Assembly (NCBI RefSeq): GCF_000423125.1
Contig: NZ_AUHJ01000012.1
Location: forward strand, 62,001-126,000
Direction of reading: 5' to 3'
Length of the DNA: 64,000 nucleotides
Source of the DNA: Haliea salexigens DSM 19537
GTDB lineage: Bacteria > Pseudomonadota > Gammaproteobacteria > Pseudomonadales > Halieaceae
The notes under the pieces were generated by a model, which saw only the letters and a list, made by a program, of their open reading frames with translations, was not told where the DNA came from and did not search any database. A program made the position numbers and the translations under genes. This document shows positions 30,938 to 37,915 of the stretch, in pieces (the stretch's first letter is position 1; every line of letters starts with the position of its first letter).

Positions 30938-31461
30938 GTTCCGGGCTCCCGTGAGTCCTGCAAATGATAGTCGAGACTGATTGTACTGCGTGCAAGCCCG
31001 GTGGCCGGGCACCGGGCCAGCAAGTCGGCCAGGGGGCCAAACCCGGGAACCAGCAGCCCGTGCGGGTAAAGGTCGAGCAGAGGATAAAGGACGAAGTGCC
31101 GTTGTGCCATGGCCGGGTGCGGAACCTGTAGCCTTGGCAAGCGGATCTCCTCGCGGCCGAAGAGCAGAATGTCCAGGTCCAGGGTGCGGGCACCCCAGCG
31201 CACGCTGCGTTCGCGGCCCTGAGCCTGCTCGATACCCTGCAGGGCATCGAGCAGTGCCAGTGGGTCCAGCCCGGTGGTAATGCGCACCACCGCGTTCAGG
31301 TAATCCGGTTGCTGCCCCGGACCCACGGCGGCGCTGGCAACCAACCCGGAGCCCGCGACAATACGCGTGTCGGGCAACCGGTTGATGGCATTGACGGCGA
31401 GTTGCAACTGCAGCGCTGGATGGCCGAGGTTGCTGCCCAGCGCGATGCAGGCGTCGGTCAT
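30934..31461 (-). CDS. folK: HPPK, 6-hydroxymethyl-dihydropterin pyrophosphokinase
   Basis: Folate pathway enzyme transferring pyrophosphate from ATP to the pterin. 175 residues with IALGSNLGHP, the RWGARTLDLDILLFG signature carrying the metal aspartates, and VPHPAMAQRHFVLYPL. The start overlaps the pcnB stop (TGATG), and the stop overlaps the kinase start. Confidence 0.96.
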   Translation of the reverse strand: MTDACIALGSNLGHPALQLQLAVNAINRLPDTRIVAGSGLVASAAVGPGQQPDYLNAVVRITTGLDPLALLDALQGIEQAQGRERSVRWGARTLDLDILLFGREEIRLPRLQVPHPAMAQRHFVLYPLLDLYPHGLLVPGFGPLADLLARCPATGLARSTISLDYHLQDSREPGT

Positions 31462-32774
31462 CAGGGGGCGGGCGGTCGCCGTTTGCGCGGCCGGCGTCGG
31501 CGTCCGCGCCCGGCGGCTTCCTCGCCGCCTTCGCTGGCGGTGTCGAGCATCGGCAGGTTCTGGTTTTCCGGAAGCTCCTGGAATTCAGTCCAGAAAGCGC
31601 CGACATTGCCGGTGTCCTCGCCCGCCTCTTCGCGCAGCAACAGGAAATCGTAGGCCGCTCGGAAGCGTCGGTTCTGCAGAAGCTCGCGTGCCTTGCGGCT
31701 GTTGCCGCGCTGCAGCCGCAGCTGGAACTCCCAGATCTCACGCATGGGCTGGCTGAAGCGGCGCGGGATGGCAATGCTGGACACGGCACTGGCGATCACC
31801 TGCTGCGCGGCGCTGTGCATGGCGGGTACGGGTGGATCGCCGCGCTCCTGCAGCTGTTCAGCGAGCTGCCTGGTCACAGGCCACAACAGAGCGGCTAGCA
31901 GGAACGCGGGAGTGACAGGTTTGTCCGCCTTGATGCGTGTGTCAGTGCTGCGCATGGCGGCCCTCACCAGCGCCATGGCGGCGGGGTCGCGGTGCAGTTC
32001 CTCTGTGCCGTCGGGGAACAGGTAGCCGAGCAACTCGTGTGTCAGCAGTGCGTCGAAGGTGCGCTCCGCATAGCCTGAAAGGAACAGCTTGAGGAACTCG
32101 TCAAACAACCGGGCCGAAGGGATTTCACGCAGCAGCGGTGCACAGCGCGGAATGGCGGCCGCGGTGTCGCTGTCAATGCCGAACTCGAGCTTGGCGGCAA
32201 ACCTCACCACCCGCAGCATGCGCACCGGGTCTTCGCGGAAGCGCTGCTCGGGGTCGCCGATAATGCAGACGCTGCGCCGCTGGAGATCCTGCATGCCGTG
32301 TACGTGGTCGTAGACTTCGAAACTGGCGGAGTCGTAGTACAGGGCGTTTACCGTCAGGTCGCGACGTACCGCGTCTTCTTCCAGCGTACCGAACACGTTG
32401 TCGCGCAGCAACAGGCCCTGTTCAGAGCGGTGTGAAGGACCCTTGACCTTGCCCGGACGGGGTGCAGGTTCGCCGTCGTGATGGCCGCGGAACGTGGTGA
32501 CCTCAATGATTTCCCGGCCCATGCGCACGTGCACGATGCGAAAGCGGCGGCCGATAATGCGCGAGCCGCGGAACAGGGCGTGGACTTCCTCGGGCGTGGC
32601 GTCGGTCGCCACATCAAAGTCCTTGGGGTGGCCACCGAGCAGCAGGTCGCGCACAGCGCCGCCGACGAGATAGGCCTCATGGTCTGCATTGCGCAACCTC
32701 GCCATGACCTTCAGGGCGCCGTCGCTGATGTTCTTGCGGGATATGCAGTGTTGGTCCCTGGGAATGACCTTCAA
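31461..32774 (-). CDS. pcnB: Poly(A) polymerase I
   Basis: Adds 3' poly(A) tails to RNA and promotes decay. 437 residues: nucleotidyltransferase motif LVGGAVRDLLLGGHPKDFDV (DxD), RRFRIVHVRMG, RRDLTVNALYYD, and an Arg/Lys-rich C-terminus (GRGRRRRPRKRRPP). The frame is closed upstream by a TAA near 32816, and the first standard start is TTG at 32774. No ATG fits the family N-terminus, echoing E. coli pcnB, which starts with AUU. The upstream gap carries the CrcZ-like RNA. Confidence 0.94.
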   Translation of the reverse strand: MKVIPRDQHCISRKNISDGALKVMARLRNADHEAYLVGGAVRDLLLGGHPKDFDVATDATPEEVHALFRGSRIIGRRFRIVHVRMGREIIEVTTFRGHHDGEPAPRPGKVKGPSHRSEQGLLLRDNVFGTLEEDAVRRDLTVNALYYDSASFEVYDHVHGMQDLQRRSVCIIGDPEQRFREDPVRMLRVVRFAAKLEFGIDSDTAAAIPRCAPLLREIPSARLFDEFLKLFLSGYAERTFDALLTHELLGYLFPDGTEELHRDPAAMALVRAAMRSTDTRIKADKPVTPAFLLAALLWPVTRQLAEQLQERGDPPVPAMHSAAQQVIASAVSSIAIPRRFSQPMREIWEFQLRLQRGNSRKARELLQNRRFRAAYDFLLLREEAGEDTGNVGAFWTEFQELPENQNLPMLDTASEGGEEAAGRGRRRRPRKRRPPAP

Positions 32775-32863
32775 GCGCGCGTTGCCTTTTGCGATGGGTA
32801 ACCAGACGCGAGTTTAGCACAGGCTAAAAGCCGTGGTCTGCAGGAGGTTGCTGGAGTATGCAA

Positions 32864-32901
32864 GTGACGGGGAAGACAGTCATCTTCCCCATCCAGATCA
32901 C
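32864..32901 (-). repeat. Second hairpin of the CrcZ-like RNA
   Basis: GTGA/TCAC outer arms and a GGGGAAGA/TCTTCCCC inner stem with a six-base loop. Each hairpin is preceded (in RNA direction) by a CA motif, so the RNA looks like a duplicated module. Confidence 0.85.
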
Positions 32902-32954
32902 AAGCGAATCATTATTGTTATGCGGGCGCCGTTGTTCTTATTGCGGCATCTGAG

Positions 32955-32992
32955 CCTGGAAATCGAAGGGGAAGAATTCTTCCCCATCCAGG
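32955..32992 (-). repeat. First hairpin of the CrcZ-like RNA
   Basis: CCTGGA/TCCAGG outer arms and a perfect GGGGAAG/CTTCCCC inner stem with AATT loop. It shares the 13-base string CTTCCCCATCCAG with the second hairpin. Confidence 0.85.
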
Positions 32993-33061
32993 TCCACAGT
33001 GTCTCTGTTATTGTTATTGGGGCTAGCGTGTTATTGTTATCGTTGCTGCCGCGATAAGTAA

Positions 33062-33077
33062 TGCAGGCGGTGTGCCA
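33062..33077 (-). promoter_or_regulatory. Sigma-54 promoter of the CrcZ-like RNA
   Basis: Minus-strand TGGCAC-N5-CTGCA, the -24/-12 layout with the GG and GC doublets correctly spaced and only one mismatch to TGGCAC-N5-TTGCA. It lies just downstream of the gene for a sigma-54 activator (CbrB). Predicted start near 33051. Confidence 0.8.
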
Positions 33078-33105
33078 GAAAATAAAATGTGCATAAAAAA
33101 CAGAG

Positions 33106-33201
33106 TGTTACAATATTTCGACTGAGTTCCCTAGCGCGCAAAATTTTACGTTTGTTACGCATCTACTCCCTCGAACGTTACAGCAGGGCCTGCCGGTAAC
33201 G
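33106..33201 (-). promoter_or_regulatory. Candidate CbrB activator sites
   Basis: Palindrome CGTTAC-N14-GTAACG at 33176-33201, directly after the cbrB stop, plus two TGTTAC half-sites at 33153-33158 and 33106-33111. These resemble the TGTTAC/GTAACA-type operator I recall for Pseudomonas CbrB. The palindrome is about 100 bp upstream of the sigma-54 promoter, a normal enhancer distance. It has no T-run, so it is a poor terminator candidate. Confidence 0.65.
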
Positions 33202-33202
33202 C

Positions 33203-34630
33203 TCAGGAAGCTGTTTTTCTGCGCCGGGCGCTGGTTCCGCCACTTTTCTTGCGCGGAATTTCGAAGCGTTGACGCCGCTCCCACAGGCACTTGCGGCTGA
33301 TACCCAGTTTCTGCGCGAGTTCGGTCTCGCTCATGGAGTCCTGATGCTCGAGCACAAAGCGCTGGAAGTAGTCCTCCAGTGACAGATCCTCGGCGGGATC
33401 CGAGGTGATGTGACGTGGCGCCTGATAGGCGGTCTGCAGGGCCGGGCCGGCGTGGCCGCGAATCCGGTTTACATTGACCAGTTCCAGGTCGATGCCCAGG
33501 GCCTCGTTGTCGATTTCCGTGTCTTCGGACAGCACGACCGCGCGCTCGATGGCGTGCTCGAGTTCGCGCACGTTGCCGGGCCACTGGTAGGTGGTAATAG
33601 CCTGAATAGCGCGCGGTGACAGTGTCATGCTGCCTTTGCCCAGGCGTTCGGACTGCACTTCCAGCATGCGTTCCGCCAGCTGCAGAATGTCCTTGCCTCG
33701 TTCGCGCAATGCGGGTAACTGCAGCCGCAGCACATTGATGCGGTAGTAGAGGTCCTGCCGGAACAGGCCTTCTGCGGACAGCGCGTGCAGGTTGCGGTGG
33801 GTGGCACAGATCAAGCGTACGTTGACCTTGCGCGAGTGTACCGAGCCTATCCGGCGAATTTCCCCTTCCTGAATGAAGCGCAGCAATCGGGCTTGCGCTT
33901 CCATCGGCAGTTCTCCGATTTCGTCCAGGAACAGCGTGCCGCCATCAGCAGCCTCAATCAGGCCCATGCGGCTGGCGTTGGCGCCGGTAAACGCGCCTTT
34001 CTCGTAACCGAACAGCTCGGACTCGATAAGGGTATCGGGAATGGCTGCACAGTTGACGCAGATGAGGGTCTTGTCCGCGCGTTGGCTGTGCTGGTGCACA
34101 CTGCGCGCCACCAGTTCCTTGCCGGTACCAGTTTCGCCCTGCACCAGCACGGTGGAGTCAGTGGGGGCGACTTTGCGGATATGCTCGGACAGGGTGACCA
34201 TCGCTGGGCAGTTGCCGATGATGCCGGTCACCGGCGAGCCATTGGCCGGGGCCTGTGGAGCGGCATCGCCGCGGCGCGTCGGGTGGTCGGCAATGATACG
34301 TTGGACAGCGGCGACCATGTCACCGTGGTCAAAGGGTTTGGCAATATAGTCCACCGCCCCCATGCGCATGGAATCCACCGCCGAGCGCAGGCTGGCGTAG
34401 CTGGTCATGATCAGCACCGGCACGTCGCCCGCTTTCTTGATCAGGTCGGTCCCGGGAGCGCCGGGCAGGCGCAGGTCCGAGATGATCAGGTCAAAATCGG
34501 TGAGCGTGTGCTTGGACTCCGCCTCCTGTACGGAGGCGGCTTCGGCAATACCATAACCGTTGCGCTCCAGCAGGCGCCGCAGCGCGGTGCGGATAACCGA
34601 TTCGTCTTCTACCACCAGTATCTGTTGCAT
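33203..34630 (-). CDS. cbrB: Sigma-54-dependent response regulator CbrB
   Basis: Activator of carbon/nitrogen-utilisation genes and of CrcZ-type RNA. 475 residues: receiver domain with phospho-acceptor D52 ([10 protein letters not shown]), AAA+ domain with GETGTGKE, the sigma-54 contact loop GAFTGANA and Walker [12 protein letters not shown], and a Fis-type helix-turn-helix ([20 protein letters not shown]). Assignment as CbrB rests on the neighbouring SSS-domain kinase and the pcnB-folK-panB-panC / gluQRS-dksA synteny with Pseudomonas. Confidence 0.92.
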
Positions 34631-34725: not shown

Positions 34726-37695
34726 TCAGGGCCCCGTGAGGTAGTGCCCGCGGGGCAATTGCAGGGTGAAGCGTGTTCCCGGTTGCTCGGCCGGGCCCAC
34801 CGGGCTCTGTATGTGCACGGAGCCCTGCATGTCATCCATGATGCTGTAAACCAGGGCCAGGCCCAGGCCCGTGCCTTCACCGGGTTCCTTGGTAGTGAAG
34901 AAGGGCTCGAAAACCTGGGTTTGCAGTGCGGGCGGGATACCGCTGCCCTGGTCTTCAACCTCAATGGACACGCGCTGCTGTTGCACCGAGGCGCTCACCG
35001 TAACCCGCGCGTTCGCGGGGCTCGCGTCACGCGCATTGCCCAACAGGTTGACGAACACCTGTAACAGCCGCTGGGCGTCGGCGTGCACCAGCAGCTCGCG
35101 GTCGCAGTGGTTCTCAAAGTGCAGCGGGCGCGCCTGGTGGTCCAGTTGCAGCAGGTGAATGGCTTCATCAACGCAATCGGCCAGGTTGCACGGTTCCAGG
35201 TGCACGTCACCGGCGCCTGAGCCCACGTGCGAGAAGTTCACCAGGGAGTCGACGATGCGGCTGATCCGGTCGGTCTGCCTGAGGATATCCTGCGCTGCGC
35301 TGCGCACCTCTGCGGGGTCGTCTTCGTAAGCGAGATTCTGCGCCAGGCAGGCGATGCCGGTTACGGGGTTGCCGATTTCATGCGCCACCCCGGCAGCGAG
35401 ACGACCGATTGAGGCTAGACGCTCACTGTGCAGCAGCTCCTGCTCCAGGCGTTCGTAGTCGGAAATATCCTCGATCAACACCAGTTGGTCACCGCCGGGG
35501 GTGCCCCCGGCGCTGGCTTTGTGTAGGCTTACCCAGCGGGTGGTGTCGTCGTCCAGCACCACCTCCCGTTTCAGCACGGTGTCCTCACCCTCGCTGAGGA
35601 ACTGGGCGATTACCCCTCCCCAGGGTGCCGGCAGGGAGTCCAGCAGCGAGCCGAGTACGGCGCTTGAAGGAATACCTGTGATGCTCTGCATACTGCGGTT
35701 CCACAGCAGCAGTTCGCGGTCGGGTGCCAGGGAACAGACACCAATGGGCAGGTTGTCCAGGGTTTGCCGGTAGTGCAGGCGCAGGTTGTCCAGCTCCGCG
35801 GCCAGCCCTGTGAACTGTCCGCCCGCGCGGTCCAGCCGGCGCTCGATCAGGAACAGGTCTTCACTGCTGCCGCCGGGGTTGTTGTCGAACGGGATACAGC
35901 GGCTGACAATCGAGTGGGCAACCGCCGGTCCCAGCAAGCCGGACAGGTTGGCCTCAAGGCGGCTGCGCAGCCGACGCAGGGCGTAGGGCCTGGATTCGTT
36001 GTGGTCGAATTGCAGCTCGCGCAGCGCGCGCGAGACCTCGAGTTGCGCGGTGGCCTCGCCCAGCGCAAGTGCGAGCTGTTCGGTGAATGCCTGCGCGCTG
36101 CGCAGGGTCAGGGTGCGCCTTGGCGATCGACTCAGCACATCCATGGAACAGATCTCCGCTGCCACGCGCTCTTCTTCCGAGGGCTCACTCAGCAGTGACA
36201 CAACAATGAACAGCGCAAGGTTCACCGCCAGTGCAGCGAGGCTGGCCGCTGCCCAGGCGGTGTCGTTGCCCGCGAACCAGCGTCCGGCCAGATCGGCCAT
36301 CCAGGTGGGCTGGTCGATGCCGAGCACGGGTAGCAGCAGCAGGATGCACCAGATCAGCAGGCCGCCGGTGAGGCCGCTGACCAGGCCCTTGCGGTTGGCC
36401 CGCGCCCAGTACGGCGTGGCCACAATACCCGGCAGGAAGTGCAGCGTACCGGAAAATGCCACCAGCCCCAGTTGCGCCAGGCTGTGCTTGCCGTTGACGG
36501 CCACGAAGAATCCGTAGCCGGCGAGAATCAGCAGGGCAATCAGCGAGCGCCGCAGCCATTTGAGCTGGTCGTAGAGTGATTGGTCAGTGCGCAGCTGCAG
36601 TAGCTGTCGCGGCAGGATAAGGTGATTCAGGCACATGTTCGCCAGCGCCAGCGTGGCCACGATGATGGCGGTACTCGCGGCAGACAGCCCCGCGACAAAG
36701 GCGAGCGCGGCGAAACCGGGGGATTGCAGGCCGATGCCGATGGCGAGCCCGGTGTACGCCGCGGGCAGGTCGTGCGACAGCCGCATGCCGGCCCAGGCCA
36801 GCGGCAGCACTGGCAGGGCCAATAACAGTAAATACAGTGGCAGGCCCCAGCTGGCGGCGCGCAGGTCCTGCGATTCCTTGTTCTCGGCAAACGCCATGTG
36901 GAACAGGTGTGGCATGCACACCGCTCCGGCGAAGAACACCAGCAGCAAGACCCGCGCGGCATCACCCGCAACGGGCTGTTCAATCACGGCCTGGGCCGCC
37001 GGGGTTGCCGCAAGCCAGGCATCAAGGCCGGCAAAGCCTCCAAAAACCTCGCTGACCGCAATACCCATCATGAGTAGCAGGGCTGCCAGTTTGACCAGCG
37101 ATTCAAAGGCCACCGCGGTGACCAGACCGATATTGCGGCGCTGCGAATTCAGGTTCCGGGTGCCGAACAGGATGGCGAAGATAATGATGATCACGCAGAA
37201 CAACAGCGCCAGTATGTCCTGGCGTTGCGCTGCGGGCATCACCCTGTCAGGGGCCCCCGCGAGTATATGGATGCTGTCTGCAACCGCCTGGATCTGGAGT
37301 GCCAGCAGGGGCATGAGCGTCAGGCACATGGCCAGGGTGACGGCACCGCCGACGCGGTGACTGCGAAAACGAAAGGTCAACACATCGGCGAGTGAAGCCA
37401 GCTGGTACACCCGACACAGGCGCAGCAGCGGCAGCAGGAGCAGGGTGGCCATGAGGAACATGAGAACCACGCCGGTGTAGTAGAGCAGGAAGCCGTAGCC
37501 AAAGCGGTAGGCGAGTTCGAAAATGGCGTTGCTGGCAATGGCGCAGGCGATGACCGCCAGCGACAGGACGTAGGTCGCCGGGTGGTGGGTAATGGCGCGC
37601 GGCAGGGTGCCGCGGTCGGCCAGGTGCGCCACCAGGAACAGCACCATCAGGTAGCCGACAATCGCCAGCAGGATTTCCGGCAGGCTAAAGCTCAT
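34726..37695 (-). CDS. cbrA: Sensor histidine kinase CbrA with sodium/solute symporter domain
   Basis: Inner-membrane sensor of 989 residues (P. aeruginosa CbrA is about 983). About 13 membrane helices of the Na+/solute symporter (SSS) type make up the first ~510 residues. A linker, a PAS domain ([17 protein letters not shown]), a HisKA domain with phospho-His 772 ([17 protein letters not shown]) and an ATPase domain ([18 protein letters not shown]) follow. Start at ATG 37695, overlapping the end of the small cbrX-like gene by 11 bases. Partner of CbrB. Confidence 0.93.
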
Positions 37696-37915
37696 CGGTG
37701 TGACGACGGAACTGGTTGGACCATGCAGCAAAAATCGCTGCGATCCAGAGGACAAAGGGGCGATACCAGCCGGCGTCCGCTGCCCACAGCCACTGGTCTA
37801 TGGCGGGCAGAAAAATGAAGGCCAACCCCATGAGCAGGAGCAGCGCGCGGTTGATGTACATGTTCTTGGGCCTGTCGTCGCCGTGGTCATGGATACTACG
37901 CAAGCCCCGGCGCAC
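37685..37915 (-). CDS. Small membrane protein upstream of cbrA (CbrX-like)
   Basis: 76 residues with two hydrophobic segments (INRALLLLMGLAFIFLPAI and WYRPFVLWIAAIFAAW). It overlaps the cbrA start by 11 bases, the same arrangement as the small cbrX gene reported upstream of cbrA in pseudomonads. The start is uncertain: GTG at 37915 lacks a clear ribosome binding site, and ATG at 37861 would give 58 residues starting MYINRALL. A role in controlling CbrA is inferred from position only. Confidence 0.75.
   Translation of the reverse strand: MRRGLRSIHDHGDDRPKNMYINRALLLLMGLAFIFLPAIDQWLWAADAGWYRPFVLWIAAIFAAWSNQFRRHTDEL

Follow-up and report, generated by a model that had tools for sequence, protein, structure and literature searches.

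A predicted compact CrcZ-type RNA between cbrB and pcnB in Haliea salexigens, with a similar locus layout across the Pseudomonadales

Genomic setting of the cbrB-pcnB gap

In Pseudomonas a free RNA is encoded between cbrB and pcnB. The question raised by the locus described here is whether the corresponding gap in Haliea salexigens DSM 19537, which lies in a 64,000-nucleotide stretch of contig NZ_AUHJ01000012.1 (the window, with the gap as locus L001), encodes an RNA of the same kind. A sequence-only reading had proposed a CrcZ-like catabolite-repression RNA outside Pseudomonas, a proposal that gains support from synteny, from the F and R subsites for CbrB, from a sigma-54 box and from ARN repeats kept in relatives, all of them features of sequence. 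Very probably, the product of the gap is a CrcZ-type RNA that is compact, at about 190 nt, and composed of two modules; it would serve as a sponge for Hfq, possibly together with Crc, and would be driven by CbrB and sigma-54. The sequence-level support consists of the locus, the promoter parts, the motifs, the fold, their conservation and the presence of cbrA, cbrB, crc and hfq; transcription, the RNA ends, Hfq/Crc binding and the regulated genes are what we infer.

The gap is 428 nt long and is read on the minus strand, from the end of cbrB at 33203 to the start of pcnB near 32774. On this strand are also found cbrA (34726..37755), encoding an SLC5-STAC-PAS-histidine kinase that matches PDB entry 10ED and contains HisKA, HATPase_c and PAS domains, with its likely start at the ATG at 37698, cbrB (33203..34630), encoding an NtrC-type response regulator and sigma-54 activator (Response_reg, Sigma54_activat), and pcnB (31461..32774), encoding poly(A) polymerase (TIGR01942, 508 bits). 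Family models support gluQ, cbrA, cbrB, pcnB and folK as neighbours; dksA, panB and panC, named by recall from the letters of their ORFs, are presumably further neighbours, and we take the gene order around the gap to be that of Pseudomonas. The order cbrB-gap-pcnB is present in the Pseudomonadaceae loci L079-L081. As expected for CrcZ as a kind, the predicted gene lies between cbrB and pcnB and on their strand. The flanking genes had been described as not of Pseudomonas type, in agreement with a host that belongs to the Halieaceae (family label f1) and not to Pseudomonas.

Ten ORFs of at least 20 aa overlap positions 32810-33060, the longest (74 aa) on the plus strand and those on the minus strand 23-47 aa in length. 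A protein-coding reading of the gap was rejected, since these ORFs are short and an extra G in hairpin H1 (see below) of several relatives would shift any reading frame; the earlier statement that no protein frame accounts for the gap thus holds.

Promoter and upstream control sites

A sigma-54 promoter of the form GG-N10-GC, TGGCACACCGCCTGCA, is located at 33062..33077 on the minus strand. This box would place +1 near 33051, in line with the minus-strand sigma-54 promoter and the transcript start at about 33050 that had been predicted earlier. When the 428-nt gap was shuffled 5000 times with its dinucleotides preserved, 69 of the shuffled sequences had a sigma-54 box, and in none did a motif lie within 60 nt after such a box.

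For crcZ of P. putida, the relevant passages of PMC6296734 describe three non-palindromic CbrB subsites, F1 (TGTTAC) and R1/R2 (GTAACA), as well as IHF. The promoter in the window is likewise preceded on the minus strand by predicted subsites F1 (CGTTAC, 33196..33201; consensus TGTTAC), R1 (GTAACG, 33176..33181) and R2 (GTAACA, 33153..33158), so that the sigma-54 promoter with its three CbrB subsites is another feature of CrcZ as a kind found here. In a 41-locus Halieaceae alignment GTTACC and GTAACA are present in nearly all rows, with the middle arm being more variable, and the F-R-R order with similar spacing was also observed in L079-L081 (Pseudomonadaceae; F1-R1-R2) and in L046 (family f24). 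Between these subsites and the promoter, TAACACTCTGTTT (33098..33110, minus strand) differs by one mismatch, judged by eye, from what we take to be the IHF consensus.

The Rfam model of the Pseudomonas sRNA P36 matched L079:318-378 and L080:346-406, between cbrB and the crcZ promoter, where it overlaps a terminator-like hairpin as well as CbrB subsites. Instead of being an sRNA of its own, P36 may therefore represent the terminator/enhancer region of cbrB.

On the pcnB side of the gap a -10-like element, TGTGCTAAACT (32811..32821, minus strand), is present, and similar boxes occur near the same place in some other families. It is probably the pcnB promoter; a sigma-70 scan listed no promoter at this site (32821-32811).

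Motifs, hairpins and predicted ends of the RNA

The predicted RNA covers 32860..33051 on the minus strand. Of the extent proposed earlier, 32825..33051, the start near 33051 was retained and the end was not: the 3' end probably lies just after hairpin H2, near 32860, and the remainder contains the -10-like box. Four clusters of the A-rich motif AANAANAA are found on the minus strand at 33031..33038 (motif 1), 33008..33018 (motif 2), 32932..32942 (motif 3) and 32912..32919 (motif 4), corresponding to the several ARN runs of CrcZ as a kind; none of 5000 dinucleotide shuffles of the gap had four. They are accompanied on this strand by hairpins H1 (CCUGGAUGGGGAAG...CUUCCCC...UCCAGG, 32955..32992) and H2 (GAUCUGGAUGGGGAAGAUGACUGUCUUCCCCGUC, 32864..32900), which are similar and have the 5' arm GGAUGGGGAAG in common. 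The four motifs and two strong hairpins reported downstream of the promoter are therefore all present in the sequence. For the 246-nt stretch 32815-33060 the folding energy is -75 kcal/mol compared to a shuffled mean of -59.1 (z -3.40), with 0 of 200 shuffles as good.

In the family consensus a module consists of a 5' stem with motif 1 in its loop, an unpaired motif 2, and then GGACCUGGAUGGGGAAG-loop-CUUCCCC. The motif 1 stem was paired in 55.6% of 401 cells, compared to 26.5-41.6% with the partner slid. Three of five covariation measures for this stem exceeded all 500 shuffles, while neither double-change pairs (8 vs 7.4) nor further pair types (23 vs 23.9) exceeded the shuffles. Flank swaps, which like the shuffles ignore species kinship and thus overstate the strength of support, reached the native energy for motif 1 in 0 of 2000 cases among 52 loci, for motif 3, which lies within a GCCG...CGGC loop, in 18 of 2000 (42 loci), and for motif 4 in 31 of 2000, so that support for motifs 3 and 4 is similar and weaker than for motif 1. 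No stem was supported for motif 2, where 1806 of 2000 swaps reached the native energy (z +1.27). Four of the 11 predicted pairs of H2 were changed on both sides among 39 sequences; none of the five pairs of H1 covaried. In the minimum-energy fold of the window itself, the 5' GCGGC pairs with GCCGC ahead of motif 3 instead of forming the local stem. Judged by eye, the window has only three of the eight consensus pairs of the motif 1 stem.

No U-run terminator follows H2. An intrinsic terminator at H2 was considered and rejected, as the scan marked H1 (in two registers) and not H2, with shuffles giving a mean of 1.0 such sites.

The second module could be aligned in 39 loci. Our hairpin pattern found one hairpin only in L040, L041 and L096-L099 and no second in L108, L110 and L119. 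The 5' alignment (A2) was drawn from 53 references, of which the near-duplicates L004 and L005 were left out; L100, which has no clean box, was never among the 53. Alignment A3 was drawn from 44, of which the near-duplicate L005 as well as L019, L028, L029 and L099, in which the pattern took the wrong hairpin, were left out.

Conservation in the Halieaceae and across the order

All 120 Halieaceae genomes searched with CbrB (the own genome included) gave some match, 113 of them at E<=1e-115; only NtrC-level matches were obtained in G004, G022, G030, G045, G068, G072 and G088. The C-terminal region of CbrB is conserved over 28 aligned sequences. Downstream of cbrB, 42 of 43 Halieaceae loci (30 best matches, eight from the order search and five chosen from distant genera) have a sigma-54 box with a motif within 60 nt, and 39 of the 43 have F/R sites as well. 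The exceptions are L100, whose box deviates, and L096-L098, which fall short in their F/R sites. Comparison of the same gap in relatives, proposed earlier as a check, hence bears out the conservation of promoter and A-rich motifs.

In the order as defined by GTDB, a CbrB-like match at E<=1e-100 was detected in 247 of 293 genomes; the weakest of these (about 1e-102 to 1e-119, for example in family f27) may be paralogues. We read 54 loci from 31 other families, 53 of which (30 families) were long enough, with L085 uncounted as it runs into a contig end. The box and motif were present in 47 of the 53 and accompanied by F/R sites in 43, and at least one positive locus was found in 26 of the 30 families sampled, one of them the Pseudomonadaceae. 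The sequence-only reading had thus understated the breadth of this layout, which is spread across the GTDB order. Box plus motif was not found in L061 (contig end), L066, L067, L068, L070 and L074. L067 and L068 (f8) and L070 (f10) have a CbrB match with neither pcnB nor a CrcZ-type layout in the following 900 nt, and the RNA may have been lost or moved in these two families.

Among 80 named loci, a set that overlaps with the Halieaceae and other-family sets such that some genomes occur in more than one, box and motif were present in 76, together with F/R sites in 73, and cbrB, box, motif and pcnB were found together in 74; at least two motif clusters were present in 78, and pcnB follows in 75. 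A search of the class gave a CbrB match at E<=1e-115 in 23 of 229 genomes, the own genome included. As a control with real genomes, up to 1000 nt after the stop codon (736 nt in L239) were read at 18 CbrB-like loci, 17 of them outside the order, and neither pcnB nor box plus motif was present at any. The CbrB-like regulators of L229-L233 and L235-L246, from other gammaproteobacterial orders and with no crcZ layout or pcnB downstream, mostly have a similar C-terminal helix-turn-helix.

Tandem sigma-54 boxes, each followed by A-rich motifs, were observed within single gaps of L043, L044, L045, L047, L053, L058, L059, L060 and L092. These units look like in-place duplications of crcZ, and the Halieaceae model R1 described below finds two units in all except L092.

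Relation to Pseudomonas CrcZ

A covariance-model search with Rfam CrcZ, suggested earlier as a check, did not bear out the proposal: the model (RF01675) had no match at E<=10 in the window, and none in L001 or in the genome. None of 14 control genomes matched in this genome search either, the positive control being the locus search of L079-L081, where the model scored above threshold, which identifies f21 as the Pseudomonadaceae. The sole Rfam match of any kind at E<=10 in 32700-33250 was mir-124 on the opposite strand, which was taken as chance. Below threshold, the CrcZ model matched the syntenic gap in 12 of the 17 other loci (20 were searched) with 19.5-66.9 bits (E 4e-15 to 0.29). The best of these were L090 (66.9 bits), L078 (48) and L077 (47.1), followed at 19.5-26.3 bits (E 0.003-0.29) by L093, L086, L026, L044, L064, L087, L082, L046 and L095. 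The Halieaceae locus among them, L026, scored 23.7 bits (E 0.017), and the Rfam membership threshold of at least 95 bits was thus reached neither by L026 nor by the window. Since the Rfam model fails on the window, the predicted RNA is best described as CrcZ-type rather than as a formal member of RF01675.

Model R1 was built from 51 Halieaceae 5' units and matched the window at 33061-32948 with 95.4 bits, L001 being among its training sequences. Over 1.26 Mb of the own genome the window alone was matched at E<=10. R1 also matched loci in eight other families (f4, f11, f24, f30, f31, f32, f45 and f47) with best scores of 37.6-56.6 bits, including 46.1-56.6 bits for named Spongiibacter and Zhongshania loci, and the matches listed included no control locus out of the 18. 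At the 3' part of CrcZ, R1 matched seven of eight Pseudomonas-like loci (one of them the MAG L138) with 18.8-29.5 bits, at E-values (0.004-0.25) that come from a small search; in L146 it matched at the 5' part only (16.9 bits). In the aligned 3' part of Pseudomonas CrcZ one ARN run is enclosed by a stem, and another run, ACCU and a G-rich hairpin are present as well. These cross-model scores are weak and no proof when taken alone, although whichever model is used the matches lie at the expected place.

The predicted RNA resembles CrcZ of Pseudomonas and Azotobacter (RF01675) in its place between cbrB and pcnB, its strand, its F1-R1-R2 subsites for CbrB and its sigma-54 box. It also has many ARN runs, the first starting 28-38 nt from the start of the box in Halieaceae and 29-30 nt in named Pseudomonas loci, and a 3' part in which one ARN run is displayed by a stem and accompanied by another run and by an ACCU..GGGG hairpin. 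In contrast to Rfam CrcZ with its 398 model positions, the predicted RNA would be about 190 nt long and composed of two modules that resemble each other, each about 95 nt in length; it has no central UUUUGGAG region and stays below the Rfam threshold. CsrB/RsmZ-type sponges likewise titrate a repressor by repeated motifs, but bind CsrA/RsmA through GGA motifs in hairpin loops. CrcX is grouped with CrcY, and both are encoded elsewhere in the Pseudomonas genome; the predicted RNA would belong to the same class of sponge RNAs. CrcY is under CbrB control according to the relevant part of PMC6296734.

CbrA, Hfq and Crc

The search of the genome for crc and hfq, which had been proposed as a check, found relatives of both, and cbrA as well. 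Residues 20-625 of CbrA align with PDB 10ED at 6.4e-161, and the protein combines an SLC5-STAC transporter part with a fused histidine kinase. 10ED is CbrXA SLC5-STAC according to its authors, a part of Pseudomonas CbrA in the description available from PMC13022988. In window positions 34726-37755 Pfam gave no sodium symporter model at E<=0.001, yet the transporter part aligns well with the solved CbrA. Hfq has the Sm fold with a conserved core, and 78 of its residues align almost letter for letter with the Hfq chain in solved entries that include an Hfq/Crc structure, a chain we take to be that of P. aeruginosa.

The best PDB matches of the Crc-like protein encoded at L032 are Crc. It has the ExoIII fold with a dead active site, with D, N, H and S at the catalytic positions compared to E, D, N and D in the ExoIII paralogue L031, and it is encoded between rph and pyrE. 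This position between rph and pyrE is shared by 28 of 29 further Halieaceae loci, L197 having no rph in the stretch; pyrE is thus a neighbour in all 30 Crc loci (L032, L181-L209) and rph in 29 of them. Over the whole protein L031 is closer to P. aeruginosa Crc than L032 (50% vs 43% identity), and the assignment of L032 as Crc therefore rests on its place and its dead active site. A FastTree tree placed the ExoIII proteins in one clade (0.982) apart from all pyrE-linked proteins, with the remainder weakly resolved.

Our pattern yielded the protein from 27 of 29 fetched loci for comparison of Crc residues. All 28 Halieaceae Crc proteins compared keep K139, R140, R141, E142 and E193 and all lack R138, K155, R196, R230 and R233 of P. 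aeruginosa Crc, residues that make RNA, Hfq/Crc or Crc-Crc contacts there according to the relevant passages of PMC6422490. Crc is thus present in the Halieaceae, with contacts that, judged by these residues, would be remodelled.

A Crc search of 61 Halieaceae genomes gave a match at 1e-40 in 60, with G004, G009 and G045 at the ExoIII level only; Crc-level matches, with at least 47% identity to the Crc of the window's genome, were in our reading present in 57, one of them (G049) partial. In other families, a pyrE-linked copy with a dead active site was found in 13 of 15 genomes, 11 of these with rph in the stretch. Co-occurrence of Crc and the RNA is not strict. In G335 (f44) only ExoIII-like matches were found, while CbrB and the RNA locus L095 are present. 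In the f29 genomes G307, G184, G215, G266 and G326 a strong Crc match was found in none of the five (best 2.2e-11 vs 1.9e-165 for the control; G307 had none at 1e-25), although all five have CbrB and the RNA layout is present where it was read (L086 and L087). It is possible that f29 and f44 are natural Crc-free systems. In the Halieaceae genus g5, all three genomes (G004, G030 and G045; incomplete, at 60-88%) gave no match at the CbrB level and none at the Crc level, so that the circuit may have been lost as a whole there.

Alternative explanations

The motifs and hairpins could instead belong to the pcnB mRNA as a long 5' leader, in which Hfq would act in cis to tune poly(A) polymerase, with no free RNA being made. 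This would fit the strand shared with pcnB, the lack of a U-rich terminator after H2 and the position of pcnB as the next gene in 75 of 80 named loci. It is very unlikely, given a -10-like box between H2 and pcnB both here and in some other families, motifs located about 140-265 nt ahead of the pcnB start, tandem promoter-RNA units in some families that a leader would not need, and the free RNA that is established at this place in Pseudomonas. We consider it more improbable still that the gene encodes a base-pairing sRNA, in which the conserved GACCUGGAUGGGG would be the seed that recognizes mRNAs and the A-rich runs would do no more than load Hfq. The columns of GACCUGG..GGGG do rank with the best conserved, more so than pairing alone would require, but part of this block is itself paired in H1 and H2, at least two motif clusters are retained in 78 of 80 named loci, and Pseudomonas CrcZ is described as a sponge in the relevant part of PMC6422490.

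The remaining alternative concerns the partner: the RNA might titrate Hfq alone, with the Crc-like protein no longer part of the complex. The five contact residues R138, K155, R196, R230 and R233 absent from 28 of 28 Halieaceae Crc proteins would agree with this, as would f29, in which RNA loci (L086 and L087) coexist with a strong Crc match in 0 of 5 genomes, and G335 (f44, RNA locus L095), where both matches are ExoIII-like. Against it stand K139, R140, R141, E142 and E193, kept in all 28 (the first four also in the ExoIII paralogue), and the Crc-level match in 57 of 61 Halieaceae genomes, and on balance such a complete departure of Crc seems rather unlikely.

Proposed mechanism and candidate targets

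For the Hfq(/Crc) sponge preferred here, the sequence of events would be as follows. When the preferred carbon source is low, CbrA would activate CbrB, which would bind F1-R1-R2 just past its own stop codon and, with the help of IHF, open sigma-54 polymerase at 33062-33077. Through its four A-rich (ARN) runs, one or more of which lie in a hairpin loop, the resulting RNA would engage the distal face of Hfq and titrate Hfq, together with Crc, off the A-rich ribosome-binding sites of catabolic mRNAs, whose repression would thereby be lifted.

Both scans for such targets used gene calls from a crude script of our own. In 1.26 Mb, AANAANAA occurred within -40..+8 of the start in 22 of 1104 genes, ranking second of 15 patterns of the same composition (6-23 for the other 14); in a smaller first sample it had ranked first of 15 (9 of 405 genes). 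A penicillin acylase-like gene (L299:1630-1690) carries CAATAACAAAAGAGG before its start. Among 20 loci for this gene, four (L309, L311, L312 and L313) have the motif directly ahead of the presumed ribosome-binding site; of the remaining loci two or three have it elsewhere near the start and the others have none. The gene is a candidate Hfq/Crc target for which these motif positions are only suggestive. For a second candidate, an acyl-CoA dehydrogenase, the comparison of orthologues was uninformative, as only 2 of 41 genomes, including the one it came from, gave a match.

Significance

In the relevant parts of a 2022 review (PMC8871633), CbrAB is stated to be exclusive to Pseudomonas and Azotobacter and the cbrA-cbrB-crcZ arrangement to be described only there; CbrAB is called unique to pseudomonads in the abstracts of PMC6296734 and PMC8871633, and CbrA/B is placed in Pseudomonas and Azotobacter in those of PMC5715377 and PMC9100948. 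Transcripts of cbrA/cbrB from mesopelagic seawater are mentioned in PMC5073097, with no lineage given in the relevant passages. Among the matches listed for open-licence PMC, subscription papers being outside the scope, there was no report of crcZ from outside the family.

Contrary to this limit, the promoter, the motif and CbrB-like genes were found across the order, which suggests a greater age and a wider distribution of this nutrient-choice circuit than published accounts allow for. As a tentative extension, CrcZ might be an order-wide and perhaps ancestral Hfq sponge of the Pseudomonadales (in the GTDB sense), made up of a duplicable module of about 95 nt, in which a 5' stem with an ARN run in the loop would be followed by another ARN run and a ACCUGGAUGGGG hairpin. 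Lineages would have lengthened, shortened or tandem-duplicated this module, and the RNA would have stayed where Crc was remodelled (Halieaceae) or lost (f29 and f44, as sampled). Provided that the RNA functions as predicted, marine heterotrophs would rank their carbon sources by the Pseudomonas circuit. Structural work could make use of the compact forms as minimal sponges, the smallest of them, in some Halieaceae, having a single module, and f29 and f44 would permit a direct look at the Crc-free case.
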